From: Rhodospirillales bacterium
Lineage (GTDB): Bacteria > Pseudomonadota > Alphaproteobacteria > ATCC43930 > CGMCC-115725
DNA length: 36,166 nt
Direction: 5' to 3'
Assembly: GCA_027315365.1 (NCBI GenBank)
Contig: DAHUYF010000149.1
Span: forward strand, 1-36,166
Shown: one piece after another, positions 2,877 through 29,833 of the stretch
Layout of the letters: each line of letters opens with the position of its first letter
How positions within the stretch are numbered: the stretch's first letter is position 1
The notes under the pieces: model-generated
Database searches by the model: none
What the model saw: only the letters and a program-made list of their open reading frames with translations
Told to the model about the DNA's origin: nothing
Position numbers and translations under genes: made by a program

Positions 2877-3917
2877 TCAACGATGGCCCGCGGTCTTCTG
2901 GTTGGGAATCCCCTCGATCGGACATTCCTCGGTGCCGACCGTGGGGCGGGTGAGGGCCTCGACCATGGTGCGCGTGCCTTCGGGATCGCTGATCCATTTC
3001 TGGTAGAAATCATAGGGGCACGCCGCCTCGCCGCGGGCGTCCTCGCGCGAGTTGATCTTGCCGGTGTAGCCGCGATGCACCAGCTTGAACAGGTGGTTCT
3101 CCGACTGCATGTTCTTGCGCGCGTCGCGGATCAGCGACTTCGAGAGCTGGGCGTATTGGATGCCGTAATCCTCCTCGCCGCACTCGCCCAGCGTCCGGCC
3201 GTCGAAGCCGATGATCGCCGAATGACCGAAATAGGAATAGACGCCGTCGAAGCCGGCGGCGTTGGCGACCGCGACATAGACGTTGTTGGCCCAGGCCATC
3301 GCCTTGGCCATGATCACCTGCTGGTCCTTGGCCGGGTACATGTAGCCCTGGCAGCGGACGATGAGCTCGGCGCCCTTCATGGCGCAGTCGCGCCAGATCT
3401 CGGGATAATTGCCGTCATCGCAGATGATCAGGCTGACCTTGAGCCCCTTCGGCCCCTCGGAGACGTAGGTGCAGTTGCCGGGATACCAGCCCTCGATCGG
3501 CACCCACGGCATGATCTTGCGGTATTTCTGGACGATCTCGCCCTTGTCGTTCATCAGGATGAGGGTGTTGTAGGGCGCCTTCTTGGGATGCTCCTCGTGG
3601 CGCTCGCCGGTCAGCGAGAACACGCCCCAGACCTTGGCCTGGCGGCAGGCCTCGGCGAAGATCTCGGTCTCGTCGCCGGGCACGCTGGACGCGGTGGCGT
3701 ACATCTCCTTCTGGTCGTACATGATCCCGTGCGTGCTGTATTCCGGGAAGATGACCAAGTCCATGCCGGGCAGCCCCACCTTCATGCCGGTGACCATCTT
3801 GGCGATGTTGCGCGCGTTCTCCAGCACCTCCTGCTTGGTATGGAGCCGCGGCATCTTGTAGTTCACGACCGCCACGCCGACCGTGTCTTTGCTGCTCGAG
3901 ATATCGCCGTGTAGCAT
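2877..3917 (-). CDS. amiE: aliphatic amidase AmiE
   Basis: A 346-residue nitrilase-superfamily amidase that hydrolyses short aliphatic amides to the carboxylic acid and ammonia in the cytoplasm. The catalytic triad is complete and falls at the positions known for the Pseudomonas aeruginosa enzyme: Glu59 (FPEYS), Lys134 (KYRKIMPW) and Cys166 (LIICDDGN). The hallmark IEGWYPG follows the Lys. Length is normal for AmiE; formamidase AmiF is a close relative and a weaker alternative. The ATG at 3917 has a strong ribosome site (GGGAGG). It lies 43 bases after the last transporter ATPase gene, so the amide would be imported and then hydrolysed, probably as a nitrogen source. Confidence 0.95.
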
Positions 3918-3960: not shown

Positions 3961-4656
3961 TCAAACCGCCATATGCCGGTGGACCAATTCGTCCGTGAGC
4001 TTGCCGACCTCGCCTTCCGCCGCGACCCTCCCCTTCTCCATGATGACGAAGCGCTGCGCCGCGCGGCGCGCGAAGGCGACGTTCTGCTCGACCAGGATGA
4101 TGGTGATGCCGTGCTCGCGGTTGAGCCGCAGGATCGCCTGCTCGATCTGCTCGACGATATTGGGCTGGATGCCCTCGGTCGGCTCGTCGAGCAGGATGAG
4201 GCGCGGATTGACGGCAAGCGCCCGGGCGATGGCGAGCTGCTGCTGCTGGCCGCCGGAGAGGACGCCGCCCATGCGGCCGAGACTCTCGCGCAGCACCGGG
4301 AAGAGCTTGAAGGCGAGGTCCGGGATCTCGCGCTTGCCGTCGCGGCGCGCGAAGCTGCCCATGACGATGTTCTCGCGCACGGTGAAGCGCGGGATGATGC
4401 CGCGCCCCTGCGGCACGTAGCCCAGCCCATGCAGCGCGCGCTCATGCGTTGGCGCGCCGGCGATGTCCTTGCCGTCGAGCACGATGCGGCCCTCGGTGCG
4501 GTCGGTGAGGCCCATCACCGTCTTCAGCAGCGTCGTCTTACCGACGCCGTTGCGACCGAGCACGGCCAGGAACTCGCCCTCGCGCACGCTCACCGAGACG
4601 TTCTGCAGCACCGGCGTGTTGCCGTAGTAGGAGGCGATGTCCTGCATCTCAAGCAT
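3961..4656 (-). CDS. urtE: urea/amide ABC transporter ATPase UrtE-type
   Basis: A 231-residue ABC ATPase of the LivF/UrtE group. Walker A is GRNGVGKT (34-41), the signature is LSGGQ (133-137) and Walker B is LILLDEP (153-159). The phrase [17 protein letters not shown] is typical of this group. It would drive uptake with the UrtD-type ATPase and two permeases. Its ATG overlaps the end of the urtD-type gene by 8 bases, so translation is likely coupled. Co-transcription with amiE and AmiC/AmiR argues for short-chain amides or urea as substrate rather than amino acids. Confidence 0.9.
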
Positions 4657-5407
4657 CGGCGATGCCTCCGCTGCCGAGATAGGCCTCGCGCACGGCGGGA
4701 TCCTTCTGCACCTCGGCGGCGCGGCCCTCGGCCAGGACCCTGCCCTGATGCATGACGGTGATGACGTCGGAGATCTCGCGCACGAAGGCCATGTCGTGCT
4801 CGACCACCAGCAGCGTGTGGCGGCCGCGCAGCGCGTTGAAGATCTTCGCCGTGTGCATGGTCTCCTGCGCCGTCATGCCGGCGGTCGGCTCGTCGAGCAG
4901 GATGACCTCGCTGTCCTGGGCGAGCAGCAGCGCGATCTCCAGCCACTGGGTCTGGCCGTGCGAGAGGTATCCGGCCGGCTGATCGAGCACCTCCTCGAGG
5001 CCGACCAGCTCGGCAAGCTTCTCGAGCCCGTCATTCTCCGCGCCGCGCTTGAAGCCGAGCAGATTGCCGAAGACGCCGAGATGCTTGCAGTAGGCCACCT
5101 CCAGATTGTCGCGGACGCTGAGCTGCCGGAAGACGCTCGGCACCTGGAACTTCCGCCCGACGCCGCGGCGCGCGAGCTTGTATTCGGGAAGGCGGGTGAC
5201 GTCCTGGCCCTTGAGCGTGATCCGCCCCGCACTCGGCTTGACCTTGCCGCAGATGACGTCGAGGGCGGTGGTCTTGCCGGCGCCGTTCGGGCCGATGAGG
5301 CAGCGCAGCTCGCCGCGGTCGATGCCGAGATTCAGGCCGCTCACCGCCTTGAAGCCGCTGAATTCGACGGCGATGTCCTGAAGCTCGAGAATGCGCTCGC
5401 CTGCCAT
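4649..5407 (-). CDS. urtD: urea/amide ABC transporter ATPase UrtD-type
   Basis: A 252-residue ABC ATPase of the LivG/UrtD group. Walker A is GPNGAGKT (39-46), the Q-loop region reads GVGRKFQVPSVF, the signature is LSHGQ (148-152) and Walker B is VILLDEP (168-174). The GRKFQ-PSVF stretch is characteristic of UrtD. The ATG at 5407 (MAGERILELQD) is chosen because the ABC domain begins directly after it; upstream frame extension overlaps the permease gene. It lies 5 bases after the urtC-type stop. Confidence 0.9.
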   Translation of the reverse strand: MAGERILELQDIAVEFSGFKAVSGLNLGIDRGELRCLIGPNGAGKTTALDVICGKVKPSAGRITLKGQDVTRLPEYKLARRGVGRKFQVPSVFRQLSVRDNLEVAYCKHLGVFGNLLGFKRGAENDGLEKLAELVGLEEVLDQPAGYLSHGQTQWLEIALLLAQDSEVILLDEPTAGMTAQETMHTAKIFNALRGRHTLLVVEHDMAFVREISDVITVMHQGRVLAEGRAAEVQKDPAVREAYLGSGGIADA

Positions 5408-5412
5408 GGCCG

Positions 5413-6549
5413 CTACCGCGCCGCGCTCTGGCGCCGCGAGGATTCGCTGCGCTCGATCGCCACCACCGAGGCGGCGGCCGTCGCCGCGCGGCCGCGCCGC
5501 CGCTTGCCCAGCGCCAAGTCGATCAGGCTGATCAGGCCGTTGGGCAGGAAGAGGACGATGACGATGAACAGCCCGCCCATGATCAGCATCCAGGTGTCGA
5601 GGAAGGCCGGAGTGTCGGAGAGGCTGCCCTGGACGCCGGTGACGACGATGGCGCCGAGCGCCGCGCCGACCAGCGAGGCGCGGCCGCCCACCGCGCACCA
5701 GATGACGATTGACAGGCTGATCGGCACGGCGAGGAAGGTCGGCGAGGCGAACTCCATCACCAGCGTGTAGAGCATGCCGGCGAAGCCGGCGATCGCCGCC
5801 GACAGGCAGAAGACGAAATTCTGGTAGGCCGCGACGTTGTAGCCGAAATACCAGACCCTGGTCTCGTCGTCGCGGATCGCCTGCAGGATAAGTCCCGTCT
5901 TGCTGTTGACGAAGGCGAGGCCGAGGAACAGGCAGAGCGAGAGCGTGATGGCCGCGAGATAGTAGGTGGCGTCGCTGTAGGCGTCGAACTCGATGCCGAA
6001 CAGCTTGAGCGTGGTCAGGTCGGTGATGCCGTTGAAGCCGCCGGTGTAGGGCTGCTGATCGATGATCACCAGGTTGATCACCACCAGCATCGCCAGGGTG
6101 ATGATCGCGACATAGACGCCGCTGACCCGCGCCGGGAAGACGAACCAGCCGATCAGGAAGGCCACCACCGCCGGCACCGCCATGCCGGCCGCGATGGCGA
6201 AGGCATAGGAATGGAACGGCACCCAGAACCACGGCAGGGCCTGGACGTTGTTCCACACCATGAAGTCGGGAAGCCCGCCGGCGCCGGTCTGGATGGGAAT
6301 GGTGCGCAGCTTCAGCGCCATCGCCATGCAGTAAGAGCCAAGCCCGAATCCCACCGCCTGGCCGAGATTGAGGATGCCGGCATAGCCCCAGGAAAGGCTC
6401 AAGGCCAGCGACAGGATGCCGAAGACCAGATAGCGCGCGAATTTGTTGAGCAGGTAGCCGTTGTCGACGAAGAGCGGCACGACGAGAATGGCGGCGCAAA
6501 AGAGAGCGTAGCCGACGAGCCGCAGGATGGCGTCGCGATTGCGTGTCAT
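5413..6549 (-). CDS. urtC: urea/amide ABC transporter permease UrtC-type
   Basis: A 378-residue inner-membrane permease of the LivM/UrtC family with many hydrophobic helices. Landmarks include NLGQAVGFGLGSYCMAM near the N-terminus and the cytoplasmic motif AIRDDETRVWYFGYN, which contacts the ATPase and matches the UrtC pattern RD-E-RV---GYN. The C-terminus is basic and Ala-rich (KRRRGRAATAAAS). It starts with ATG 6 bases after the UrtB-type gene. Confidence 0.9.
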   Translation of the reverse strand: MTRNRDAILRLVGYALFCAAILVVPLFVDNGYLLNKFARYLVFGILSLALSLSWGYAGILNLGQAVGFGLGSYCMAMALKLRTIPIQTGAGGLPDFMVWNNVQALPWFWVPFHSYAFAIAAGMAVPAVVAFLIGWFVFPARVSGVYVAIITLAMLVVINLVIIDQQPYTGGFNGITDLTTLKLFGIEFDAYSDATYYLAAITLSLCLFLGLAFVNSKTGLILQAIRDDETRVWYFGYNVAAYQNFVFCLSAAIAGFAGMLYTLVMEFASPTFLAVPISLSIVIWCAVGGRASLVGAALGAIVVTGVQGSLSDTPAFLDTWMLIMGGLFIVIVLFLPNGLISLIDLALGKRRRGRAATAAASVVAIERSESSRRQSAAR

Positions 6550-6555
6550 GAAGGA

Positions 6556-7428
6556 TCAGCTCCGGCGTAACCGCATGGCGAAGAGTCCCTGGGGAAAGAG
6601 ACGGATGAGCACCACCATCCCGAGGAAGACGACCGCCTTCGCCATGGTGTCGTTGCTGAGAAAGGCCAGCACGCCGTTCGCCTGGCCGATGAGGTAGGAG
6701 CTGGCGACCGTGCCGAGCAGGCTCTGCACGCCGCCGACCACCACCACCATGAAGGCGTCGACGACGTAGTTCGTGCCCATGTCCGGCGATACACTCTTGA
6801 GCGGCGACACCAGCGCGCCGGCGACGCCGGCGAGCCCGGCGCCATAGGCGAAGGTGAGCGAGTAGATCCGCGCCGCATTGATGCCGAAGCAGCGTGCGAT
6901 GTCGCGGTTCTGCGTCACCGCGCGCAGCCTGAGACCGAATTCGGTGCGGAAGATAAGAAAATATGTCGCAAGCAGCAGCGCCACCGCCAGCACGAAGATG
7001 AAGATGCGATAGGCGGATTCCTCGTAGCCCATGACGTGCACGGGATTGACCAGGAAATCCGGCATCTTCACGTAGCGCAGCTCGGCGCCGGCGCCGAGCC
7101 TCACCGCCTGCTGCAGGATGACGCCGACGCCCCAGGTGGCAAGGATGGTATCGAGCGGACGGTCATAAAGGCGGCGGATGAGCGTCAGCTCGACCAGCCA
7201 GCCGACGAAGCCGACGAGAAGGAAGACAAGGACCAGCCCGGCGATCAGGCCGATGCCCAGGAAGGTCTGCAGAAACCAGACGGCATAGGCGCCGAGCATC
7301 ACGAACTCGCCATGGGCGAGATTGATCACGCCCATGGTGCCGTAGATGATCGCCAGGCCGAGCGCGATGAGCAGCAGGATCGAGGCGATGCTCAAGCCGA
7401 CCGAGATCTGCGGAATAATGGAACTCAT
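6556..7428 (-). CDS. urtB: urea/amide ABC transporter permease UrtB-type
   Basis: A permease of about 290 residues in the LivH/UrtB family. It has the N-terminal GLAIIYGTMGVINLAHGEFV segment and the late motif FMVVVVGGVQSLLGTV. It lacks the long N-terminal periplasmic extension of cyanobacterial-type UrtB, so it is closer in size to LivH or FmdE-like amide permeases. I used the ATG at 7428 (MSSIIPQ); a TTG one codon earlier is possible. It is the first membrane gene after the binding-protein gene, from which it is separated by a hairpin. Confidence 0.88.
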   Translation of the reverse strand: MSSIIPQISVGLSIASILLLIALGLAIIYGTMGVINLAHGEFVMLGAYAVWFLQTFLGIGLIAGLVLVFLLVGFVGWLVELTLIRRLYDRPLDTILATWGVGVILQQAVRLGAGAELRYVKMPDFLVNPVHVMGYEESAYRIFIFVLAVALLLATYFLIFRTEFGLRLRAVTQNRDIARCFGINAARIYSLTFAYGAGLAGVAGALVSPLKSVSPDMGTNYVVDAFMVVVVGGVQSLLGTVASSYLIGQANGVLAFLSNDTMAKAVVFLGMVVLIRLFPQGLFAMRLRRS

Positions 7429-7446
7429 CAAACTTCATCCCGGCGC

Positions 7447-7472
7447 GGCGGGCGCCGTGCCCGGCGCCCGCC
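7447..7472 (-). promoter_or_regulatory. intercistronic hairpin between binding protein and permease genes
   Basis: A perfect 11-bp GC stem with a 4-base loop lies in the 77-base gap between urtA-type and urtB-type genes. It has no T-run, so it is not a standard terminator. Hairpins here often protect the upstream message and let the binding protein be made in excess over the membrane parts. That role is inferred from position. Confidence 0.6.
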
Positions 7473-7508
7473 TTGCCATCCAGCCCCGATGCCGCGGCGC
7501 GAAATGCG

Positions 7509-8759
7509 CTACGCCTTCTTCTGCTGCAGCCCCTCGGGGGTGCAGACCTGCCCCGGATAGGCCCAGTAGGGCAGCGGCTTCACCCACTCCTTCGACTGCT
7601 CGATGATCTTGAACTGGCCGTTGGTCTGCGCCTCGCCGATCTTCGGCCAGAGATAGGTGTGCGAGTTGTCGGGGTCGATCTTCACCAGCCCTTCGGGCGC
7701 CTTGTACTCCTGGCCCCAGGCCGCTTCGCGGATGGCCGGCGGCGTGAGATCCTTCTTGCCCAGCTTCTCGACCGCCTGCTTGAAGAGATGCACCTGGAAA
7801 TAGGCCGGCTCGGAGACGAAGTTGGTCGTCTTGCCCTTGCCCCAGCGCTTCTGGAAGGCCTCGACGAATTTGTGATTCTCCGGCGAATCGTAGGACATGA
7901 AATAGGGCGCCGAAGTGAAATGCCCGGCGGCGAACTCGCCGCCCATGGCCGCGATCTCTTCCTCGGAGGTGGTGAGGCTCGCCATCGGCATCTTCTTGGG
8001 ATCGAGGCCGGCAGCCTTGTACTGCCGGTGCAGCGCCACCACGGAATCGCCGACCACCGTCGAGAAGATGACGTCGGGCCGCGTCTCCTTGAACTTGCTG
8101 ATCACCGAGCTGAACTCGGAATGGCCGAGCGGCACGTATTCCTCGCCGACGACCTCGCCGCCCAGCTCCTTCAGCAGGATCTTGCAGACGTTGTTCTCCT
8201 CCTTCGGATAGATGTAGTTCGAGCCGATGAGGTAGAATTTCTTGCCGAAATTCTTCACCAGCCAGGGCACGAAATCCTTCTGCTGCTGGTTCGGCACGGC
8301 GCCGGTGTAGATCACGTTCTTCGAGCATTCGCGGCCCTCGTAGAGGGTCGGATACCAGTAGAGATTGTTGTACTTCTCGAACACCGGCAGCACCGCCTTG
8401 CGGCTCGCCGAGGTGTAGGAGCCGAAGACGCTGACGCAGCGGTCGCCGACCACCAGCTTGCGTGCCTTCTGCGCGAAGGTCGCGGGGTCGGAGGCGGGAT
8501 CCTCGACCACCGGCACCACCTTGGCGCCGTTGATGCCGCCGGCGGCGTTGATCTCGTCGATCGCCATGAGGGTGGCCTGGTTGAGCGAGGTCTCGATGAT
8601 CGCCGTCGTGCCGGTGAGCGAATAGAGCACCCCCACCTTGATCTCGCCGGCCGCATAGGCGAGCCCCGAATTCTTGATCCAGATCTGCGGGAAGCCGGCC
8701 GCTGTGGCCGCGCCGATCGCCGCCGTCCCCTTGAGGAATTTTCGCCTGTCGAGTCCCAT
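7509..8759 (-). CDS. urtA: Tat-exported urea/short-chain amide binding protein
   Basis: A 416-residue periplasmic binding protein of the UrtA/FmdD/AmiC family. The N-terminus MGLDRRKFLKG followed by an Ala-rich stretch is a twin-arginine signal; the mature protein likely begins near AAGEIKVGVLYSLTG. Ligand-region signatures are shared with the amide sensor AmiC encoded upstream: SRKAVLPVFEKYNNLYWYPT, GSNYIYPKE, DVIFSTVVGDS and SLTTSE. It would catch amides or urea for the permeases downstream. Its ATG follows the leader terminator and a GGGAG ribosome site, so expression depends on antitermination. Confidence 0.92.
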   Translation of the reverse strand: MGLDRRKFLKGTAAIGAATAAGFPQIWIKNSGLAYAAGEIKVGVLYSLTGTTAIIETSLNQATLMAIDEINAAGGINGAKVVPVVEDPASDPATFAQKARKLVVGDRCVSVFGSYTSASRKAVLPVFEKYNNLYWYPTLYEGRECSKNVIYTGAVPNQQQKDFVPWLVKNFGKKFYLIGSNYIYPKEENNVCKILLKELGGEVVGEEYVPLGHSEFSSVISKFKETRPDVIFSTVVGDSVVALHRQYKAAGLDPKKMPMASLTTSEEEIAAMGGEFAAGHFTSAPYFMSYDSPENHKFVEAFQKRWGKGKTTNFVSEPAYFQVHLFKQAVEKLGKKDLTPPAIREAAWGQEYKAPEGLVKIDPDNSHTYLWPKIGEAQTNGQFKIIEQSKEWVKPLPYWAYPGQVCTPEGLQQKKA

Positions 8760-8777
8760 CTGTGTCTCCCTGGAGGC

Positions 8778-8828
8778 AAAAAAGAAAACGCCCCCGCGCG
8801 ACCAGCGATGTGGTCGTCACGGGGGCGT
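8778..8828 (-). terminator. intrinsic terminator in the transporter leader
   Basis: On the minus strand a hairpin with a perfect 9-bp outer stem (ACGCCCCCG with CGGGGGCGT) and a perfect 6-bp inner stem (CGACCA with TGGTCG) is followed at once by TTTTCTTTTTT. It sits about 20 bases before the binding-protein start codon, inside the operon. That makes sense only as a regulated attenuator, since the downstream genes have no other clear promoter. Confidence 0.9.
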
Positions 8829-8869
8829 CCTTGCCCTGATGTCAATTGTGGGGCGGCACCGCTGCCGCC
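8823..8869 (-). promoter_or_regulatory. ANTAR two-hexaloop antiterminator RNA
   Basis: Two small hairpins precede the terminator. P1 (8852-8869) has a 6-bp stem GGCGGC/GCCGCC with hexaloop AGCGGU. P2 (8823-8836) has a 4-bp stem GGGC/GCCC with hexaloop AAGGAC. Both loops have A at position 1 and G at position 4, the known ANTAR recognition pattern. The 3' half of P2 is part of the terminator's 5' arm, so P2 and the terminator exclude each other. A 15-base linker separates P1 and P2. The ANTAR gene amiR ends just upstream. Confidence 0.85.
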
Positions 8870-8901
8870 TTGCGCATCACGCGCAAATAACGGGTAGCAG
8901 G

Positions 8902-9522
8902 TTATCCAAGGAGCTGCTGCGAGTCAACGATGGCGGCGGCGACGGCGCTCAACGATACGCGCCGGCTCATCGCCTGCCGCCGCATGAAGTGATAGGCCTC
9001 GTCCTCGCGCAGGTTTTCCTTCGCCATGAGGATGGCCTTGGCGCGCTCGACGTTGCGGAAGGCGCGCAGCGTGTCGTCGAGCTTGTCGACGCGTCCCCGC
9101 AGCCGCCGGTCGTAGCCGAAATGCGACCGCGCCAGAACCAGGGTGGTCAGCACCGCATGGGTGGTGAAGGGCCGGTGCAGCACGGCGTCGGGCGCGCAAT
9201 TGCGCAGAAGTTCGAGATCGGGCGGCGGAAACGGCGGAATGATCAGCACCAGCGCCGATTTGGGCTCGCCGGGAAGCCAGGGGATGCGAGCGGCAAGTCC
9301 CGGCGCCAGATCGACGAACACGACGTCGGCGTCCTCGGGCAGGCGCTCGGGCACCGGCCAGAGATGACGGACGCGGGCGCGGGTGCGCTGCAGCTCACGG
9401 ATCAGCAGCTCCCCGACCTCGTCGCGCTGCGTCGCGACGAGGATGTCGAGATCGACGATCTCGGCCGGCAGCACGCCGGCCTTCCAACTCATGCGCGTTG
9501 CCGATCGTTCCGATGGCGGCAT
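8902..9522 (-). CDS. amiR: ANTAR-domain antitermination regulator AmiR
   Basis: A regulator of up to 206 residues: an N-terminal pseudo-receiver domain, a helical linker, and a C-terminal ANTAR RNA-binding domain (about the last 60 residues, with RNVERAKAILMAKENL and EDEAYHFMRRQAM). As in Pseudomonas AmiR, control is expected by AmiC holding it inactive until amide binds, not by phosphorylation. It lies 19 bases after amiC. The start is uncertain: ATG at 9522 or at 9492 (MSWKAG), neither with a strong ribosome site. A hairpin (TTGCGC/GCGCAA, 8870-8886) follows the stop. Confidence 0.92.
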   Translation of the reverse strand: MPPSERSATRMSWKAGVLPAEIVDLDILVATQRDEVGELLIRELQRTRARVRHLWPVPERLPEDADVVFVDLAPGLAARIPWLPGEPKSALVLIIPPFPPPDLELLRNCAPDAVLHRPFTTHAVLTTLVLARSHFGYDRRLRGRVDKLDDTLRAFRNVERAKAILMAKENLREDEAYHFMRRQAMSRRVSLSAVAAAIVDSQQLLG

Positions 9523-9541
9523 CTATCGTCCGGCGACCGTT

Positions 9542-10687
9542 CTAGGGACAGAGCACCGATCTTCCGTACCCGATCAGATAGGGATCGGCAAGCACCGGAT
9601 TGACCGATTGATGCACCACCTCGAACTGGCCGCGGCGATTGGCGCGGCCGATGCGGGTCCAGAGATCGGCGTGGCTGCAGCCCGGGTTGATCGACACCCT
9701 GCCCTGCGGCGCGTCGAAGGTCGAGCCCAGCACCATCGGGCGGAGGATATCGGTGTCCATCGAGTTGGTCTGCCCCAGCGCCTTGGCGAACATGTGCACC
9801 TGGAAGTAGGCGGCCTCGACGCACATGTTGGTCGGTTCGTCGGCGCCGTAGCGCTTCTTGTAGCCGGCAACGAAGGAGGAATTCCGCTCGCCGCTGACGC
9901 ATTCGAAATAGGGCGCGGCGGTGACGTGGCCCTCGCCGACATCGAAACCCATCGCGCGGATCTCGGCTTCGGTCGTGGTCAGGCTGGCGATCGGCAGCAG
10001 CTTCGGATCGAACCGGGCGTCGGCATAGCTCTGGTAGAGATCGACAGTGGCGTCGCCGACCACGGTGGAGAAGATCACGTCGGGCGCGCTCTCGCGAATG
10101 TCGCGCATCACCGGCAGGAAGTCGCGCCGCTTGCAGCGCAGGTCGAGATAGACCTCGCCCGCCACCTCGCCGCCATTGGCGCGCAGCAGCTCGCGCATGA
10201 TGCGGTTGGATTCGCGCGGATAGACGTAATCGGAGCCGACGAAATAAAAGCGCGGGCCGTAGTGGTCCATGAGGAAGCGGCACAGCGCCACGCTGTTCTG
10301 GTTTGGCGCGGCGCCGGTGTAGATGATGTTCGGCGAGAACTCGAAACCCTCGTACAATGTCGGATACCAGAGGAGGCCGTTGAGACGCTCGACCACCGGC
10401 AGCACCGCCTTGCGACTGCTCGAGGTATAACAGCCGAAGATCGTGGTGACCTCGTCTTCGACCATGAGACGCTTGGCAAAATGCCCGAAGGCCGCCGCTT
10501 CCGACGCGGGATCGTAGAGGCGCGGCACGATCTCGCGACCGTTGACTCCGCCGGCGGCGTTGATCTCCTCGATCGCGAGCAGCGTGCCGCGCAGCTGCGT
10601 CTCTTCGATCACGGCCATGAACCCGCTGCTCGAGAAGAGCACGCCGACGCGCCAAGGTGCCGACGTCTGGTCAGGTCTACCAGTCAC
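9542..10687 (-). CDS. amiC: cytoplasmic amide sensor / negative regulator AmiC
   Basis: A 381-residue protein with the periplasmic-binding fold but no signal peptide, as expected for AmiC, which binds amides in the cytoplasm and controls AmiR. Strong family signatures are GCYTSSSRKAVLPVVERLNG, YPTLYEGFEFSPNIIYTG, APNQNS, GSDYVYPRESN and DVIFSTVVGDA. The start is GTG at 10687, supported by GGAGGAA seven bases upstream. It is the first gene of the operon and lies upstream of the regulated terminator, so sensor and regulator can be made without inducer. In Pseudomonas, amiC and amiR lie downstream of amiE. Confidence 0.94.
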   Translation of the reverse strand: MTGRPDQTSAPWRVGVLFSSSGFMAVIEETQLRGTLLAIEEINAAGGVNGREIVPRLYDPASEAAAFGHFAKRLMVEDEVTTIFGCYTSSSRKAVLPVVERLNGLLWYPTLYEGFEFSPNIIYTGAAPNQNSVALCRFLMDHYGPRFYFVGSDYVYPRESNRIMRELLRANGGEVAGEVYLDLRCKRRDFLPVMRDIRESAPDVIFSTVVGDATVDLYQSYADARFDPKLLPIASLTTTEAEIRAMGFDVGEGHVTAAPYFECVSGERNSSFVAGYKKRYGADEPTNMCVEAAYFQVHMFAKALGQTNSMDTDILRPMVLGSTFDAPQGRVSINPGCSHADLWTRIGRANRRGQFEVVHQSVNPVLADPYLIGYGRSVLCP

Positions 10688-11268
10688 GGCAATTCCTCCA
10701 CAATCTGCAGGTTGACATCCTCGAACTAATCAAAGAGGACGCCCCGTTTTTCCGAAGCGTCGTCCCGAAATACTCAAATGTCAATGCGGCCGCCGACATG
10801 GCACGCTCCTGTCGTTGCTCGCCCGCGACTTCTGCCGACCGCTTGGTGGCCGAAAGGCCGAAATCCCTCGGCTCTCTTCCGGCCGTCCCCTGCGCAGCAA
10901 ATCCCGTGCCATCGCCGGACAGGGCGGTTTCGCGCGCAAACGCGCCGCCGAAGCGTGCGGCGGTGAGCGCGATGCACTCTCTTGCTCAGACATCGGGCAG
11001 CGGCTTGGCGCGAAAGCACGCAGCAGCGGCGTCACCGAGGCGCCGGCTGCGGACAATTTTTCGTGGCTGGAAACAGGCCCGCACTATCTTCGTGTGCGCT
11101 CCCGCGCGCGTCGCTCGACGCACCTACGGGCGCTTCAGAACCAACCCATGAGCGAAGCCCGCTCGGCCGTAAGCGCCGGGCGCGATCTCGTCGAGCCTGG
11201 CCGCCCTCGGACAATCGAGCTTGATCTCGGAATCTTTCCGGATGCGAGCGGTGGCGTTCGCCCGGCGT
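10688..11268. other. 581-base intergenic region without a supported gene
   Basis: Open frames here are short, rich in Arg/Ser/Pro and look like shadows of GC-rich DNA. The amiC promoter should lie on the right of its start. The minus strand has TTGACA at 10784-10779, but I see no convincing -10 at the right spacing, and no sigma-54 site. No terminator with a T-run was found after the phosphotransferase gene ending at 11269. Confidence 0.6.
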
Positions 11269-12597
11269 TCAGCCCGCGAGCGCTGCGCTCAATCCCGGAA
11301 GCGGTGCCTCGTTTCGTCTCATCCAGCGCACCACGCCGGCGACCCCGTCGACAGCGACAAGCGCACCATCTGGGATCCGCCGGGTGGCGTCGGGGACGCC
11401 CAGCACCGTCGGGATGCCGCGCTCGCGGGCGAGCGACGCCAGATGGGACGTGCTGCCGCCGAGTTCGGTGACGAGACCCCCGACCAGCGGCAGCACATGG
11501 CTCAGCGCCGGGCTGGCGACCCGGGTGACCAGAACGTCCCCCGGCCCGACGCGCGTCAGCTCGCATTCGCACGACACCACGCAAGCGCGCCCCGTTCCCC
11601 AGCCGATGCCGGCGGGGTTGCCGTGGAGTTGGGGGTGCTTGAGCCAGACGTCGTCGGGCACGACCGCCGACCCGACCTGCAGCGGCCGCGCCTGCAGCAA
11701 GGCAAACCCGGTCTCGTCGAGCGCCCATTCGATCTCGACCGGCATACCCATCACGTCTTCCACCCGCCGCAACAGCCGGCCGAGTTCGGCCGCTCGCGCT
11801 TCATCGAGACACGGCGTTCCCGCCAGGGTGCCGGCAACCGGGCGACCCGTCGCGCCGTGGCCGTGGGTGCAGTCTCCGCGGTGCTCCTTGCGGCCGACAT
11901 CGACGGCGAGGACCCCGCCATCGCGACCGAACACGATGCGGTCGGGCGCGACTTCGCCCTGCGCGATCGCCGAGCCGAGACCCCATGCGGCGTTCGCCAC
12001 CATCTCGCCCTCGGCGGTCCGGCTCAGCCCGCCACCCGCGGCGATGGCCGGCACCAGCGGCTGGAGCAGGATCGCCATTGCAGTGTCGGCGGGATCGAGG
12101 TCGTGGGTTGCCATGTAGCGCAGGGCCCGCGTCGACCACAGCGCCGCCCAGCAGGCGCGGACCGCCGTCTGGAAATCTGCCTCGCTGTCCACGCCGAGAT
12201 AGCTCTCGAACTGGCCGGCGAAGCTGGAGCCGAAACGGTCCTCGACCAAGGCCGAGGAGCGCACCACGCCAAGCGCGCCCGCCGGTGCCGTGATCGTCCG
12301 CCAGGCGGCGAGCAGCGGCTCGAGCAGGGCGGGGTCGACCGGCCGGTCGAGCAGCGCCAGCTTCATCTCCAAGGCGTGGCGGCGCGCGGCCGGCCCTTCC
12401 GCCGCGAAAGTGCTGCGCGCAGTCTGCTGCAATCCGAGGGCGGCGACCTGCCGACGGTAGGCCTCGGCGTCGACACAGAATCCGGGCGGCACCGGCAAGC
12501 CGGCGCGGCACAAGGCGGCGAGATTGGCCGCCTTCGGCCCGAACCGGGCGGCATCCGCCGCCTCCGGCGCGTGCAGCGGAAGTATCAGGCTTGTCAT
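11269..12597 (-). CDS. two-domain PEP synthase-like phosphotransferase (ATP-grasp plus His domain)
   Basis: A protein of about 442 residues. The N-terminal part is a PEP/pyruvate-dikinase ATP-grasp domain: GPKAANLAAL, VRSSALVEDRFGSSFAGQFE, EIEWALDETGFALLQARPLQ. The C-terminal part is the swivelling phosphohistidine domain with the catalytic His in GGSTSHLASLARERGIP. The C-terminal TIM barrel that binds pyruvate in PEP synthase is absent. So it could form phosphohistidine from ATP, but its acceptor is unknown. The ATG at 12597 is preferred, with GGAG nine bases upstream; ATG at 12612 is possible. It is the last of three minus-strand genes beside an ABC transporter, which suggests it phosphorylates an imported compound. 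Confidence 0.82.
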   Translation of the reverse strand: MTSLILPLHAPEAADAARFGPKAANLAALCRAGLPVPPGFCVDAEAYRRQVAALGLQQTARSTFAAEGPAARRHALEMKLALLDRPVDPALLEPLLAAWRTITAPAGALGVVRSSALVEDRFGSSFAGQFESYLGVDSEADFQTAVRACWAALWSTRALRYMATHDLDPADTAMAILLQPLVPAIAAGGGLSRTAEGEMVANAAWGLGSAIAQGEVAPDRIVFGRDGGVLAVDVGRKEHRGDCTHGHGATGRPVAGTLAGTPCLDEARAAELGRLLRRVEDVMGMPVEIEWALDETGFALLQARPLQVGSAVVPDDVWLKHPQLHGNPAGIGWGTGRACVVSCECELTRVGPGDVLVTRVASPALSHVLPLVGGLVTELGGSTSHLASLARERGIPTVLGVPDATRRIPDGALVAVDGVAGVVRWMRRNEAPLPGLSAALAG

Positions 12598-12657
12598 CGC
12601 TCGATGCTCCATAGCGGCGCGCCAGTCCTGCCCGATCCCCGGCACTCTCCCGTCGGG

Positions 12658-13932
12658 TCAGACACCGTCGATGCCCAAGGTCGAATAGCCCGGCATCGGG
12701 TCGACGACGGTGATCTGCTCGACCGGAAAGTGGGAGATCAGCTCGACGCGATCCGGATGCACGATCAGCATCTCTTCGATCCGCACGCCCCATTGCAGCG
12801 GCTTGCCGTGCTGAGTCTCGAGCGCGAACACCATGCCCGGCTTGATCTCGACCGGATGGTCGAGCGACCAGATGCGCGAGATCACCGGCTGATCGTATTG
12901 CGCGAGGCCAAGCCCGTGGCCCCAGAGATTGGCGGCCGCTTGATCTTCCTCCTGGTAGCCCCAAGCCTCCTTTGCCGAAGGCCACTTCGACGCGATCTCG
13001 CGCGTCGTGGTGCCGGCCTTCACCGCCTTGATCGCGTCGTAGAGCCATTTGAGCGCGGTGGCGTAGACGTCCTTCTGTTCCTGGCTCGGCTCCTTGCCCA
13101 CGCAATAGGTGCGATAGTAGCAGGACTTGTAGCCGTTCCAGGTCAAGGCGGCCAAATCCATGAACACGATGTCGCCGGGCTTGATGATGCGGTCGGAGAA
13201 GTTGCGCCAGTTCGGCCAGGTGTTCGGGCCGGACGAGACGATGACGTCCTCGACATCCTCCATGCCGGGGATCGAATAGAGGAACTGCATGATGTGCGCG
13301 GTGACCTGATTTTCGGTCACGCCGGGCTTCAGGAACTTCATGCATTCCCAATGCGCGGCGTCGCCGATGGCACCCACCATGCGCATGCATTCCTGCTCGT
13401 CCTCGTTCTTGACCGCGCGCGCCTCCATCATCGCGGTCATGCCGTCGGTCCACTCGATCTTCGCGTCCTTGAACGCCTGCAGCATGTTGATGTCGACGAA
13501 ATCGACGCCCAGCTTCATGCCGTCGACGCCGGCCTTCTTCATCTCCTGCACGATGGCATTGGTGAATTTCCTGACCTGCTGGGTCGATGCCGGACCGGCG
13601 GCGCCCTTGATCCAGGCATAGGACCAGCGGACATTCTGCTTCGGAATCCATGGCGAATGGCGCTCGATCTGCAGGCCGATGTCGCCCTGCTCGAACAGAA
13701 CGGGCGCATCGTCGCCGCACAGCATGGCGTAGCGCAAGCCGGGCTTGAGCCGGTTCCAGCCCGGCGTCATTGTGCTCGTCACGTAGCGCACGTTCTCGTC
13801 GTACATGAGCAGAAGCGCACCCAGGCCATGCGCCTTCATGCGCTCGCGCGCGCGCTCGAGCCGGTATTTGCGCAGCCTGTCCCAATTGATGCGCTGCTGC
13901 CAATCCAGTCCGACCATTCCGAAACTTGCCAT
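12658..13932 (-). CDS. M24-family (creatinase/DddP-like) protein with lost metal ligands
   Basis: A 424-residue protein with an N-terminal creatinase-like domain (LGALLLMYDENVRYVTS) and a C-terminal pita-bread M24 fold. His in WGHGLGLAQYD and both Glu (MVFALETQHG, VRIEEMLIV) are present. In the stretch DIVFMDLAALTWNGYKSCYY the first Asp is kept, but the second metal-binding Asp of normal M24 enzymes aligns with Cys, and the extra Asp of DddP aligns with Ala. Creatinase, a metal-free member, also lacks these. The function may be C-N or C-S bond cleavage rather than peptidase action. The ATG at 13932 follows GGGAG. Confidence 0.8.
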   Translation of the reverse strand: MASFGMVGLDWQQRINWDRLRKYRLERARERMKAHGLGALLLMYDENVRYVTSTMTPGWNRLKPGLRYAMLCGDDAPVLFEQGDIGLQIERHSPWIPKQNVRWSYAWIKGAAGPASTQQVRKFTNAIVQEMKKAGVDGMKLGVDFVDINMLQAFKDAKIEWTDGMTAMMEARAVKNEDEQECMRMVGAIGDAAHWECMKFLKPGVTENQVTAHIMQFLYSIPGMEDVEDVIVSSGPNTWPNWRNFSDRIIKPGDIVFMDLAALTWNGYKSCYYRTYCVGKEPSQEQKDVYATALKWLYDAIKAVKAGTTTREIASKWPSAKEAWGYQEEDQAAANLWGHGLGLAQYDQPVISRIWSLDHPVEIKPGMVFALETQHGKPLQWGVRIEEMLIVHPDRVELISHFPVEQITVVDPMPGYSTLGIDGV

Positions 13933-13989
13933 CGTGCTGCTCCCGCCCAAAATGCCGATGAAGTTACGTCGACTCCGCGCGCGCCCGGT

Positions 13990-14985
13990 CTATCCGGCAA
14001 CCGTCTCGACCCGGCCGGTTCGCACCGATCGGGCCACCGCTTCGAGGGCGGCGATCGTCGCGACCATCTCCCGCTGCGGTACCGGGTACGGCGCGCCACC
14101 GCCCGCGGCCGCCGCGAAGGCCTCGAGATTGACCCGCACCGCCGGCGTTGCCGGATAGGCCGCGCTGGAGCGCTCCCCGTCTTTCCGGGAGATGGTCAAG
14201 GACGAGCCGGTCGGGGCGTCGGGGTGGCTCAGGTCTCGCATCTCGGCCCAGCCCTTGCTGCCGTAGAGGGCAAAGCGTCCGTCATAAGGCGTCGCCAGGA
14301 TCGCGCTGATCAGCGCGTTGGCACCGCATTTGAACGTCACGAGAGCGCCGAGCGTATCGCCGTTCGCCAGGACGCCGTCGTGTCGCGCCACGGTCGCAAA
14401 CGCCCGCTCGGCGGGTCCGAAGAAGCTTACCGCCAGATCGAGCATATGGATCCCGGTCGCCGTGAGGGGCCCGGCCGGCGCCTCCGCGCTGGACAAGCGC
14501 CAGCTGCCGGCCGGCAGGTCGAGGAACTTGTCCTGATGGAAATTTGCCTCGATCTGGAGAGGCGTGCCGAGCTCGCCCTTGTTCAGGCGCCGGTGCATCT
14601 CGACGATCGGCGCGTCGAAACGACGCTCATGACCGATGCCGAGCACGACGCGATTCCGGTTACAGGCTTCGATCGCCGCCTCCGCTTCCCGGGACGTGAG
14701 GGTCAGCGGCTTCTCGCAGAACACGTGCTTTCCGGCGGCCGCGGCCAGAAGGATCTGGTCGAAATGGGTGGTGTGGGGCGTGCACAGGATCACCGCGTCG
14801 ATGCCGGGATCGCGGAGGGTTTCGGCATAGTCGGTGGAAATCTGCACGCCGCATTGTCGCGCGAACTCGGTGCCGGCGGCGCTGCGGGTCACCGCCTTGG
14901 TGGCGCGCAACTTCTCACTGCGGCGCAGCATCTCGACGATTGTCTGACCCCACCAGCCCAGTCCGATAACCGCCGCGTTCAGCAT
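13990..14985 (-). CDS. Gfo/Idh/MocA-family NAD(P)-dependent oxidoreductase
   Basis: A 331-residue dehydrogenase. The Rossmann fold begins at the N-terminus (AVIGLGWWGQ, residues 5-14), and the family motif EKPLT lies at 91-95, followed by a GHERRFDAPI segment. These enzymes usually oxidise sugars, cyclitols or related alcohols, but members vary widely, so the substrate cannot be read off. It is the first gene of the minus arm, facing an ABC transporter operon across a shared regulatory region, and 57 bases ahead of the M24 gene. Confidence 0.88.
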   Translation of the reverse strand: MLNAAVIGLGWWGQTIVEMLRRSEKLRATKAVTRSAAGTEFARQCGVQISTDYAETLRDPGIDAVILCTPHTTHFDQILLAAAAGKHVFCEKPLTLTSREAEAAIEACNRNRVVLGIGHERRFDAPIVEMHRRLNKGELGTPLQIEANFHQDKFLDLPAGSWRLSSAEAPAGPLTATGIHMLDLAVSFFGPAERAFATVARHDGVLANGDTLGALVTFKCGANALISAILATPYDGRFALYGSKGWAEMRDLSHPDAPTGSSLTISRKDGERSSAAYPATPAVRVNLEAFAAAAGGGAPYPVPQREMVATIAALEAVARSVRTGRVETVAG

Positions 14986-15096
14986 GAAGCGTCTCGGTCA
15001 AGCATCTCGCGGCGCACCTCGGTTCCCTGATCGGCAAATGTGTCGTCGCATTCTCGGCGGCAGATCCCGCTCGCATGGTTCTGGCGCCGACGGCGT

Positions 15097-15122
15097 GCGG
15101 CATTGATTTAGATCAATGCCGC
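15097..15122. promoter_or_regulatory. FNR/FixK-type palindrome in the divergent promoter region
   Basis: The core TTGATTTAGATCAA (15103-15116) matches the FNR/FixK/Anr consensus TTGAT-N4-ATCAA exactly, and the symmetry extends to an 11-bp arm on each side of a TTAG centre. It lies 118 bases from the oxidoreductase start and 157 from the binding-protein start, so it could serve either promoter. I see no clear -10 box at the expected distance on either side. Confidence 0.75.
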
Positions 15123-15272
15123 CGCGGTGCTTCCCCCATTGAGTCGATGCACCACCGCTGCGGCCGATGACGAGCCGCCGATCGCGTGAGCGCGTGAAGA
15201 GCGGGGCGCAGACTTGGTGTCGGCTTGTCGGGTGGATATCGGGCGCAAACCTCGAAGATAGGGAAACGAGCC

Positions 15273-16517
15273 ATGAGGCAGGTATGGCGCCTGTTCATGC
15301 TATCCGCGCTTTGCAGCGGCGTCGTCTTTGGTGCGGCGATCGCGGCGGAGCCGGACCATGTCGAGGTCGGCGTTCTGCTTCCGCTCACCGGTCCCTTTGC
15401 CGGGGTGGCGGAGACCCAGAAGGAAGGCGCGCTGCTGGCGGTGGACGTGGTCAACCAGCGGGGCGGACTCGACATGCCTTGGGGCAAGGTGAGGGTGAGC
15501 GCAGTCGTCGATGACGACGAGGCCAAGCTGGATGTCGGCGTCCGCCGCTACCGCTATATGGTTGCGCAAGGCGTCAAGGGCGTCGGCGGCCAGACCTGGG
15601 CACCGCTCGCCTACGCGGTGAACGCGATGGTGAGCCGAGAGGCGATGACGTATTTCCCGCTCTGCGTGATGTCGAAGGAAGGCTACCAGAAAGGCAAGCT
15701 CGCCGATTCCACCTTCGCCACGGCCTACAGCCCCTGGTCGATCGGCTACATGAGCGGAAAGTCGGCAATCGACGTCCTCGGCAAGCGACGCATCTTTTTC
15801 CTGGCACGCTCCGATAGCTTCGGCTGGGACATGCGCGACGGCGTCCGCGCCGCCGCGAAACAATACGGCGCGGACGTCGTCGGTTACGACGAAGTGCCGC
15901 TCGGAACGAGCGACTTCACCGCGATCTTGACGAAGGTCCAGGCCGCCAAGCCGGACATTTTCGTCTTCGCACAGTTCGGCGCCGACGCCGTGGCCCTGTT
16001 GAAGCAAGTGCATCAGATGGGCCTCGGCAAGGACATGGATGTTTTCAACGCCTTCATCACCAATGTGGTGGCCAGCGGCGTACCCGCGGAGGATCTGCAA
16101 GGCGTCTACGCCATGACCTACTTCTACTACGATCTCGGCACCTTCCCGGACAAGGACGTGGCCGCAAGCGCGCGGGCGTTCACTGATCTGTTCCGCGCGA
16201 AATACCAGTCGCCTCCCGATGCCTACGCGGCTATCGCGTACATCGCCTACACGGAAATGTTTCGCGGCTTCGAGGCCGCCAAGTCCTTCGATCCGCACAA
16301 GGTTGCCGCGGCGCTGATGGCGAACTCCGGCGCGTTCAACACGGTGAAGGGACCCGCGCAATGGCGCGAGGACCACGAGCCGATCTACAAATACGCCGCC
16401 TTCCTGGTCAGGGGGAAGGGTCCCAACGAGCGGAAGGACGGATGGGACCTTTTCACGGTCATCGGCTCGCAGGGCGGCCAAGAGGTGCTGCCGACGCCCA
16501 AGGCTCTCGGTTACTGA
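15273..16517 (+). CDS. ABC transporter substrate-binding protein (LivK-type)
   Basis: A 414-residue periplasmic binding protein. The N-terminus MRQVWRLFMLSALCSG...AAIAAEPD is a Sec signal with likely cleavage after the AIAA region, followed by VEVGVLLPLTGPFAG, a standard type I fold start. It belongs to the amino-acid/amide (HAAT) class but is clearly different from the amide binding protein in this window: it lacks the YPTLYEG and GS-Y-YP signatures. A weak GGGA ribosome site precedes the ATG. It heads a six-gene transport operon; the ligand is unknown. Confidence 0.9.
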   Translation: MRQVWRLFMLSALCSGVVFGAAIAAEPDHVEVGVLLPLTGPFAGVAETQKEGALLAVDVVNQRGGLDMPWGKVRVSAVVDDDEAKLDVGVRRYRYMVAQGVKGVGGQTWAPLAYAVNAMVSREAMTYFPLCVMSKEGYQKGKLADSTFATAYSPWSIGYMSGKSAIDVLGKRRIFFLARSDSFGWDMRDGVRAAAKQYGADVVGYDEVPLGTSDFTAILTKVQAAKPDIFVFAQFGADAVALLKQVHQMGLGKDMDVFNAFITNVVASGVPAEDLQGVYAMTYFYYDLGTFPDKDVAASARAFTDLFRAKYQSPPDAYAAIAYIAYTEMFRGFEAAKSFDPHKVAAALMANSGAFNTVKGPAQWREDHEPIYKYAAFLVRGKGPNERKDGWDLFTVIGSQGGQEVLPTPKALGY

Positions 16518-16538
16518 CGCCTTGACCGGCAACCCGGC

Positions 16539-17321
16539 GTGAGCACCGACATCATCAGAGCCGACGGCGTCACCAAGCGCTTCGGCAGGTTCGTCGCCGT
16601 CGATCGCATCGACTATGGTTTACGGGAAAATGAAGTGTCCGGCATCATCGGGTCGAACGGCGCGGGCAAGTCCACGCTTTTCAATTTGCTGACCGGCTAT
16701 TGCGCGCCCGACGAAGGCGTCATCCACTACCGAGGGCAGGACATAACGCGCGTCACACCGCAGGAGCGGGTCGCCAGAGGCATTACGCGCACCTTCCAGC
16801 TGACATCCGCGTTCGACAATTTGAGCGTGGTCGACAATCTCGTCCTGGCGTTCTTTCGCGCGCACCGGCAGCCGTCGTTGCTACGGCTCCTGATCAACCG
16901 GCGCAAGCGGCACCGCGACGCGGAGCAAATCGGCGAAACCTTGCAGACGTTTGGCTTCGATGGTATCCGCGACCGGGAGGTCAAGCGCCTAGGCCTCGGC
17001 GAAAAGCGGCGCCTCGAAATCGCCATGGCGGTCCTGTCCGAGCCGAAAGTGCTGTTGCTCGACGAGCCACTCGCGGGGCTGGCGGAATCCGAGATCAAGG
17101 GAGTTCTCGACGTGCTCCGTCGGCGCCGCGGGCTCCAGGCGATCCTGATCGTCGAGCACAAGATTTCGCATCTGCAAGATCTCGTGCAACGCCTCACCGT
17201 CATGCATGAGGGTCGCATCATCGCCGATGGCACCTGCGAGGAGTGCCTGAGCGATGCGGCCGTGCGACGGAGCTATTGGCAGATCGACGTCGCGGCCGGG
17301 AGGGAGGCCGTCGCCCCATGA
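16539..17321 (+). CDS. branched-chain-type ABC transporter ATPase (LivG type, first copy)
   Basis: A 260-residue ATPase with Walker A GSNGAGKS (38-45), a LivG-type signature LGLGEKRRLEIAMAV and Walker B VLLLDEPLAGL. The GTG start is 21 bases after the binding-protein stop; no ATG is available before the Walker A. Its stop overlaps the next ATPase start as ATGA, showing tight coupling. A second LivG-type gene closes the operon. Confidence 0.88.
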   Translation: MSTDIIRADGVTKRFGRFVAVDRIDYGLRENEVSGIIGSNGAGKSTLFNLLTGYCAPDEGVIHYRGQDITRVTPQERVARGITRTFQLTSAFDNLSVVDNLVLAFFRAHRQPSLLRLLINRRKRHRDAEQIGETLQTFGFDGIRDREVKRLGLGEKRRLEIAMAVLSEPKVLLLDEPLAGLAESEIKGVLDVLRRRRGLQAILIVEHKISHLQDLVQRLTVMHEGRIIADGTCEECLSDAAVRRSYWQIDVAAGREAVAP

Positions 17322-18016
17322 GCGAGGCCGGCGGCGACGCCCTGTCCGTCATCGGCTTGAATGTCTGGTACGATGAGGCGAAGGCTCTGTTCGATGTCAG
17401 CCTGCGCGCCACATCGGGGCAAGTCGTCGCCTGTGTCGGCCGCAACGGCGCCGGGAAGACCACGCTCCTCAGGACGGTCGCCGGCTTTCTCAAGCCGCGA
17501 TCGGGTTCGATCGCCTCCGCCGGAGTCGATCTCGTCGGGTTACCGTCTTACGGGGTTGCCCAACTCGGCATCAAATACGTTCCCCAGGACAAAATGGTCT
17601 TTTCCGATCTCACGGTCAGGGAAAACCTGGAGCTGAGCAGCTACGCCACCGGGGATTACGACTGGGAGCCGGTCACCACCTATTTTCCCAAGCTGAAAGC
17701 GCTCATGGACCATAAAGCGGGCCATCTGAGCGGCGGCGAGCGGCAGATGCTGATGATCGGCCGGGCGATCCTCGGGCGCCCCGGACTTCTTCTCGTTGAC
17801 GAGCCGACCGAAGGCCTGGCGCCCGGCATCGTCATGCACCTGAAGCACGTCTTCCGGGACCTGAGCAAGCGGGCGACGCTGGTGATCGTCGAACAGAACC
17901 TGCCGATGGTGTGCGCGATTGCCGACACGCTGTACGCCATGAGCGACGGACGCATCGTCGCGGAGTTCGCCGGCCGCGGCTCGGTTCGGCCGGAGGTTTG
18001 CGAACGATATCTTTGA
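17318..18016 (+). CDS. branched-chain-type ABC transporter ATPase (LivF type)
   Basis: A 232-residue ATPase with Walker A GRNGAGKT (41-48), signature LSGGERQM and Walker B LLLVDEP. IKYVPQDKMVFSDLTVRENL is the LivF-type segment. The ATG overlaps the upstream stop (ATGA, 17318-17321). A gap of 123 bases separates it from the permease. Confidence 0.88.
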   Translation: MSEAGGDALSVIGLNVWYDEAKALFDVSLRATSGQVVACVGRNGAGKTTLLRTVAGFLKPRSGSIASAGVDLVGLPSYGVAQLGIKYVPQDKMVFSDLTVRENLELSSYATGDYDWEPVTTYFPKLKALMDHKAGHLSGGERQMLMIGRAILGRPGLLLVDEPTEGLAPGIVMHLKHVFRDLSKRATLVIVEQNLPMVCAIADTLYAMSDGRIVAEFAGRGSVRPEVCERYL

Positions 18017-18139
18017 TCACGCGGAGAGAATCAAGCGTGGGGAATTGGCCATGAGCCGCAGCTGGAGAAGTTCGACAGGTCGCGGCGGGTCGGCCCCGGG
18101 CTTCGCGGCGCTCCGCATTGCGATCGATGGGGTCTGACG

Positions 18140-19986: not shown

Positions 19987-20096
19987 TGAGGCGTCGAACC
20001 CGGACCCGCAGCGATGCGGATGTCGTCGCGCGGCGGATCGCCTGGAGAGGCCGGGATATCTCGCTGCCGACGTCTCACGACGAGGGTGCGGGGTGA
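19983..20096 (+). CDS. possible 37-residue coupling ORF between permease and ATPase
   Basis: An ATG overlapping the permease stop (ATGA, 19983-19986) opens a 37-residue frame. It ends in a TGA that overlaps the GTG start of the next ATPase (GTGA, 20093-20096). The product would be basic and Arg-rich (MMRRRTRTRSDAD...) with no domain I recognise. The two exact overlaps suggest it may carry ribosomes across a 106-base gap. Chance cannot be excluded, as GC-rich DNA gives many open frames. Confidence 0.35.
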   Translation: MMRRRTRTRSDADVVARRIAWRGRDISLPTSHDEGAG

Positions 20097-26273: not shown

Positions 26274-26289
26274 GTCGAGCCTCCTCCTC

Positions 26290-27363: not shown

Positions 27364-27367
27364 CGCC

Positions 27368-28399: not shown

Positions 28400-28461
28400 C
28401 GCGTCCTTCCTGCTTTCGGTTTAGCATGCCGCCGAGGGCGCTTCGCGGACGGTGATCGATC

Positions 28462-29163: not shown

Positions 29164-29289
29164 CCGGCGCCCGGCGCGTCCTTCCTGGACCGCGGCTTCA
29201 GTACAGCACGAATCTCCGGCTGACGACATATTAAATGCGATATCTCGAATGTATAGGGCCGACGGTCGCGCGGGTTGGCGATTTCGCGA

Positions 29290-29816: not shown

Positions 29817-29833
29817 GGACGCGCGAGGTCGAG

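Follow-up and report, generated by a model that had tools for sequence, protein, structure and literature searches.

In P. aeruginosa the leader lies before amiE, and the regulator genes follow downstream. The antitermination mechanism has been published for this amiE leader, for K. oxytoca nasF and for the eut genes of E. faecalis, and the dual hairpin of P. aeruginosa amiE was assigned in the same work, where it forms part of the seed of the search (PMC3369931). In the ANTAR model described there, a protein dimer reads the loops of two hairpins, the second hairpin (P2) is held and the terminator is blocked (PMC3369931; structure in PMC8934654). Natural eut linkers measure 5-12 nt; linkers of 3 and 14 nt fail with EutV, and a 14-nt linker crippled a eutP reporter (PMC3369931). 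An actinobacterial survey of ANTAR RNAs accepted linkers of 2-25 nt (PMC8164766).

Here we describe a leader of this kind in a 36,166-nt stretch of DNA from a Rhodospirillales bacterium, the whole of which is called the window below. The leader lies between a regulator gene and a transporter operon whose products would take up and break down amides.

Gene neighbourhood and anatomy of the leader

The leader occupies the 142-nt stretch 8901-8760 on the minus strand, between amiR and the gene for a transporter substrate-binding protein. The neighbouring features are listed below in order of coordinate.

2877-3917, minus strand: amiE, aliphatic amidase (NF009802, 717.3 bits, cut-off 427; PDB 2plq, 643 bits; start codon chosen)
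3961-4656, minus strand: UrtE-type ATPase (TIGR03410, 310.7 bits, cut-off 285.8)
4649-5410, minus strand: UrtD-type ATPase (TIGR03411, 328.5 bits, cut-off 304.1; first in-frame ATG a few bases in)
5413-6549, minus strand: UrtC-type permease (TIGR03408, 356.8 bits, cut-off 296.2)
6556-7431, minus strand: UrtB-type permease (TIGR03409, 319.7 bits, cut-off 250.3)
7509-8759, minus strand: transporter substrate-binding protein with twin-arginine signal (PF13433, 492.5 bits; TIGR01409, 22.5, cut-off 16.7)
8902-9522, minus strand: amiR, ANTAR antiterminator with AmiR_N and ANTAR domains (PF21332, 58.5 bits; PF03861, 54.6 bits)
9542-10687, minus strand: amiC-like amide sensor, Peripla_BP_5 (PF13433, 457.7 bits)
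10896-10911, minus strand: possible sigma-54 promoter, TGGCACGGGATTTGCT, 208 nt before amiC

By their profile matches, the genes downstream of the leader encode an ABC transporter of the urea/amide type together with an aliphatic amidase; the binding protein scores 435.5 bits against the UrtA model, under its cut-off of 492.75. The regulator is identified as AmiR by its AmiR N-terminal and ANTAR domains and by the AmiC gene beside it, and its family profile finds AmiR of P. aeruginosa (1qo0) as the best match in the PDB and EutV (6wsh) as the second. The residues through which EutV contacts RNA include K149, E160, Y164, R168, M172 and R175 (PMC8934654), all six of which are kept in the window AmiR; at EutV positions R142, N173 and R177 it has F, S and S, and at 143 and 147 R replaces K. 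The AmiC-like protein has P. aeruginosa AmiC (1pea, 290.3 bits) as its second PDB match, after 8tg1 (303.6 bits), and no signal sequence is seen at its N-terminus, which starts VTGRPDQTSAPWRVGVL.

The match TGGCACGGGATTTGCT is the sole one with zero mismatches among the 5 found with up to 2 mismatches (5.47 expected), scored against the sigma-54 promoter consensus. A site of this kind ahead of amiC would hint that nitrogen control is layered over the amide switch. Across 79 upstream regions the window match has 0 mismatches and six regions have a match with two (1.1 expected); the site is not conserved in relatives and hence stays just a lead.

Other gene groups share the window. A second branched-chain-type ABC transporter set lies at 15225-20839, with a Peripla_BP_6 binding protein identified by search and the rest read from the gene list, and the region 11272-20839 also holds an M24 peptidase, a Gfo/Idh/MocA oxidoreductase and a PPDK-N/PEP-utiliser protein. 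The cluster at 23083-35563 comprises two HdrC-like proteins and HdrB-like, HdrA-like, DsrE2-like proteins and lipoyl synthases like LipS1 and LipS2, all below curated cut-offs, together with a cysteine-rich-domain protein above its cut-off; we take it to resemble a sulfur-oxidising heterodisulfide-reductase-like system. At its edge, a 749-aa frame (23083-25332, minus strand) joins a lipoate-protein ligase domain (residues 126-326) to an alpha/beta hydrolase domain (487-708) and may be either a fusion or an artefact.

Within the leader, the following elements are found, from 5' to 3'.

8886-8870, minus strand: P0 hairpin, directly 5' of P1
8869-8852, minus strand: P1 hairpin, GGCGGC-AGCGGT-GCCGCC; 6 bp, loop AGCGGU (8863-8858)
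8851-8837, minus strand: linker between P1 and P2, 15 nt
8836-8823, minus strand: P2 hairpin, GGGC-AAGGAC-GCCC; 4 bp, loop AAGGAC (8832-8827), 3' arm 8826-8823
8828-8788, minus strand: intrinsic terminator hairpin, -33.9 kcal/mol, covarying in relatives
8788-8778, minus strand: T-tract of the terminator, TTTTCTTTTTT

As expected of an ANTAR target RNA, P1 and P2 each combine a stem of 3 bp or more with a loop of six bases that carries A at position 1 (A1) and G at position 4 (G4). The 3' arm of P2 (8826-8823) lies inside the 5' arm of the terminator, which makes P2 and the terminator mutually exclusive. The initial annotation had described just such a pair of six-base-loop hairpins with A1 and G4, the second sharing its 3' arm with a strong T-run terminator, and had placed them between amiR and the transporter; all three points are borne out by the coordinates above, to which P0 is an addition. 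The fold energy of the terminator hairpin was equalled by 0 of 200 shuffles. P2 by itself is weak (-6.1 kcal/mol against -33.9 kcal/mol for the terminator) and would thus need help to win. The leader terminator was not among the 3 listed by a simple scan of 7400-11000 (2.6 in shuffles), probably because of an unpaired base in its stem. Rfam yielded no family at gathering score in the window, and just two weak matches to unrelated families (E up to 1) in 8700-8960.

When folded in isolation, P1 forms an A1-U6 pair that closes a GCGG tetraloop. This pair is absent in many relatives, so we take the hexaloop to be the common form of P1. The 15-nt linker lies outside the EutV range and is the one published ANTAR-RNA feature that the window leader lacks; because this range is known for EutV only and the actinobacterial survey took 2-25 nt, it is not taken as defining an ANTAR RNA. 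Linkers in the curated relatives span 8-16 nt, the only lengths that the filter itself allowed. On the evidence of its sequence, the leader is a new example of the known class of ANTAR antiterminator RNAs.

Chance expectation, conservation and covariation

The strict finder seeks P1, P2 and a terminator, with the loop rule (A1 and G4 in both loops) as an option. With this rule, it made 0 matches in 5000 dinucleotide shuffles of 8600-8911, and the leader is its sole match on both strands of the window; a laxer finder adds one pair at about 11215. Relatives came from a scan of named genomes, of which the best 80 of 150 loci, with their 83 AmiR copies, gave 84 leaders together with the window. 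Without the loop rule, the strict finder detects a unit in 57 of the 84, window included, where 30 rounds of dinucleotide shuffling give 0.17 on average; with A1 and G4 imposed on both loops it detects 18 against 0 in shuffled sequence. The strict unit is missing from 27 of the 84 leaders.

A covariance model built from 32 units, with the window and L033 left out, recovers the window leader at 71.6 bits (E 8e-18 genome-wide) and the runner-up at 20.9 bits, while an earlier model, R1, which had the window among its training units, gives 73.6 bits and 24.8 bits for the next match. The initial annotation had proposed a covariance-model search as a check, and a model made from relatives indeed finds the window. 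Neither model reveals a convincing second leader in the same genome: the next match of R1 (24.8 bits, contig C208), between genes read from their translations as a glycerol-type ATPase and a DeoR-type regulator, is chance-like, and so by its score is that of the other model (20.9 bits, contig C88).

The genetic context is widely preserved. In 79 of the best 80 of 150 loci amiC precedes amiR on one strand, L036 being cut at a contig end, and in 70 of the 80 this strand also has a binding-protein gene downstream. The ten loci without the latter include L041, L070 and L097, which end at most 0.6 kb from amiR, L038 and L044, where amiE takes its place, and L099, L100, L102, L109 and L112, which have none of the queried genes downstream. 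R1 marks a leader 3' of amiR, on the coding strand, in 56 of the 57 loci L033-L089, many of which are R1 training loci; the sole exception is L041, which ends shortly after amiR, and L037 has one extra weak antisense match. In the distant loci L090-L111, a related finder identifies 0 units and the model gives mostly weak matches, some with a poorly formed P1.

The number and placement of the units vary. Two tandem units lie 3' of a single amiR, before the transporter, in eight loci (L036, L037, L042, L043, L047, L048, L049 and L064), and L083 and L084 have two amiR copies with a unit after each. Model matches also occur 5' of amiC, weaker ones just 5' of it in the distant loci L009, L090, L113, L122 and L123 and stronger ones in L227, L229, L234 and L235. 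Since units stand on either side across loci, the switch can be placed before the regulatory genes, after them or both. L209, L214 and L224-L226 have units but no amiR in the 1.5 kb that was fetched. In L209 (1501-1581) and L214 (1501-1582), which belong to genomes of the window's family, the ANTAR units precede a related binding-protein gene and are possible trans targets.

It is worth considering whether another protein reads the leader. The genome has a second ANTAR gene, on contig C173, whose product is read from its translation as NasT-like, and EutV and NasR have loop preferences in common (PMC7496416), so this protein rather than AmiR could be the one that binds. However, the element adjoins amiR, as it does in the 56 of 57 loci mentioned above (many in the training set), and the genes it would control serve amides. 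We give binding by the C173 protein very little credence. Several relaxed-finder matches in the 9.2 kb around the C173 gene were judged unconvincing.

Curation of the relatives kept 46 distinct units and dropped 18 rows, mostly wrong registers; it also lost the real units of L059 and L086, the second unit of L064 and leaders in which P2 is not GGC/GCC. Covariation was assessed in an alignment of 37 of these 46 units; a further alignment drew on 32 of them. P1 and P2 taken jointly contain five double-change pairs, four of them in P1 (19 cells against a shuffled mean of 7.3), and P1 and the terminator jointly contain seven, three of them in the terminator stem (30 cells against 9.3 shuffled). 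P2 is nearly invariant in the 37-unit set, and its 3-bp core is invariant in the curated units because curation demanded GGC/GCC. The support for P2 comes from two sets of loci outside model training, in each of which it has three double-change pairs, although both were aligned with the model itself, a step that favours structure, the first includes weak matches down to E 0.01, and the L179 unit is identical in sequence to training row L057. In the second set the loop-closing pair of P2 changes from C-G to U-A in 8 distinct units. Slid control versions have paired cells in far smaller numbers and score lower for covariation. Of the five measures, only the count of further pair types does not clearly exceed its controls: it is 16 in the first set against 17 in one slid version, 13 in the second against 13.1 shuffled, and 11 for P1 and P2 in the 37-unit set against 14 in one slid version. 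The initial annotation had named a lack of covariation in homologous leaders as grounds for abandoning its reading; the stems of P1, P2 and the terminator all covary. Comparison at the sequence level establishes both the anatomy and the conservation of the leader.

These data also bear on a simpler reading of the strong terminator directly 3' of amiR, which might just end an amiC-amiR unit, the transporter having its own promoter and the hairpins being incidental. This is very unlikely: only 18 nt separate the T-tract from the next start codon, which leaves little promoter room and implies that the transporter needs read-through, no sigma-70-like site was found in 7400-11000, and dual hairpins occur in relatives far above shuffles and covary.

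A third alternative involves P0. At the P0 position, 24 of 43 leader units have a hairpin of at least 5 bp, compared with an expectation of 3.3 under mononucleotide shuffling, and the sequences of these hairpins are unrelated. With the amiR stop codon only 32 nt 5' of P1, transcription-translation coupling or Rho might set read-through, the ribosome that ends amiR freeing or blocking the hairpins, P0 serving as a buffer and AmiR being dispensable. Such a scheme leaves two covarying hairpins and the loop conservation unexplained, and the distance from the amiR stop to P1 is variable, from +9 to +76 in the first units of relatives; we regard its probability as close to negligible. In the Bradyrhizobium group the P0 loop is often AATAGC, that is, a six-base loop with A1 and A4.

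Loop position 4 and AmiR residue 165

All 92 loops of the 46 curated units have a purine at base 4 (P1: G in 34, A in 12; P2: G in 29, A in 17). With a single exception base 1 is A or G, which for P2 is partly by construction because the finder demanded A or G there; later matches with U1 in P2 are L085, L141, L184, L186, L188, L191 and L243. The initial annotation had invoked A1 and G4 as the rule of ANTAR recognition, a rule that the loops of the window leader obey and that does not hold in all relatives, where G1, U1 and A4 also occur. To judge from these relatives, recognition is less strict than the published rule would have it. EutV itself is impaired by a G4A change in either loop (G32A, G56A; PMC3369931).

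A4 in both loops is found in five lineages with a readable AmiR, namely the Bradyrhizobium group, L039/L045/L046, L190, L241 and L223, and additionally in L242, which has no AmiR within reach. In the AmiR tree, whose bootstrap is unsettled and from which the later-found L241 and L223 are absent, the Bradyrhizobium A4 group accounts for 14 rows (support 100/99), and L039/L045/L046 group with L041 and L183 in a five-member clade (100/99) whose sister, L040, has G4 in both loops. Within the Bradyrhizobium group, L053/L180 and L057/L179 keep G4 in one loop, so that A4 looks there like tolerance rather than a full switch. Reading the Bradyrhizobium P1 as a tetraloop closed by a G1-C6 pair fails for the loops GACACT, GACACA and GACAGA.

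Four of the five A4 lineages have a small residue (G, S or A) at position 165 (EutV numbering), beside the Tyr164 that stacks on base 4; residue 165 is H, Q, R, N or K in most G4 systems examined. Among the ANTAR columns from EutV 125, it is the only one flagged: G or S in 33 rows of the Bradyrhizobium and L039/L045/L046 groups, including L057 and L053 with G4 in one loop each, against H, Q, R, A and S in 23 hand-picked rows with G4 in P1, under a rule that at most 3 of the 23 be shared (one S is). Rows examined later have A in L190, which is a long branch, G in the Bradyrhizobium-like L238, S in L241 and N, together with Phe164, in L223. Where Tyr164 is followed by N, K or Q, the first units have G4 in P1. 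Residue 165 is no full explanation of A4: the clade of L083, L084, L086, L088 and L089 has A or S at this position yet G4 in P1, and L223 has A4 with N165 and F164. Nor does Phe164 account for A4, as L088 combines F164 with G4 in both loops. With such exceptions in both directions, the association of residue 165 with A4, which was picked after the fact, is taken merely as a lead. Evolution of the ANTAR loop rule itself, with a purine rather than strictly G at base 4, is a tentative and somewhat doubtful possibility; such a shift could separate AmiR and NasT circuits in one cell.

Proposed mechanism and comparison with known systems

Based on the above data, we propose that the leader is, with high probability, an ANTAR-type attenuator through which AmiC and AmiR would control the amide transporter and amidase genes by antitermination. 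With 15 nt between the amiR stop and P0 and 18 nt between the T-tract and the start codon, regulator and target genes would share one transcript, and transcription would enter from upstream through amiC and amiR. Without amide, AmiC would hold AmiR, as in P. aeruginosa, the terminator (8828-8788) would form and the polymerase would halt before the transporter. With amide, AmiR would be freed by AmiC and would bind the P1 loop, then the P2 loop; P2, once held, would withhold its 3' arm from the terminator, allowing read-through into the transporter genes and amiE. Because amiC and amiR precede the switch, basal production of sensor and regulator would continue, and switching would be confined to the genes for uptake and breakdown. 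While the six kept RNA contacts of EutV favour this reading, the linker, longer than EutV tolerates, the changed contacts at R142, N173 and R177, the tetraloop that P1 may adopt when folded alone and the 27 of 84 leaders with no strict unit speak against an attenuator, as would a promoter inside amiR, which is possible.

Neither the window leader nor loops with A4 were found in the published literature searched; the supplementary tables of PMC3369931 may list the leader. The locus offers a clean and conserved case of ANTAR antitermination for amide uptake. Its single run of genes takes in sensor, regulator, switch and targets, which makes it useful as a compact model; the wider comparison adds natural tandem switches and a testable question of protein-RNA recognition, that of loop base 4 against residue 165.

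The leader is close in kind to that of P. aeruginosa amiE, with which it shares the sensor and regulator families, the target enzyme, the dual hexaloops and the terminator overlap (PMC3369931). In contrast to that system, it lies 3' of amiR and before a UrtBCDE-type transporter, and amiE comes last. With the eut leaders of E. faecalis it has in common two hexaloop hairpins, A1 and G4, and the overlap of P2 with the terminator (PMC3369931, PMC8934654), but its linker measures 15 nt as opposed to 5-12, and some of its relatives have A4; moreover, AmiR would be set free by AmiC, in place of phosphorylation by a kinase. K. oxytoca nasF has the same RNA motif and likewise belongs to a nitrogen-source gene set, although NasR, as described in PMC7496416, senses nitrate itself, without a separate sensor of the AmiC type. 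The NasS-NasT leaders of Bradyrhizobium and Paracoccus also pair a sensor partner with an ANTAR protein and act by terminator read-through (PMC6759348, PMC5424462); they differ in responding to nitrate, where the signal here would be an amide, and in the genes that they control.
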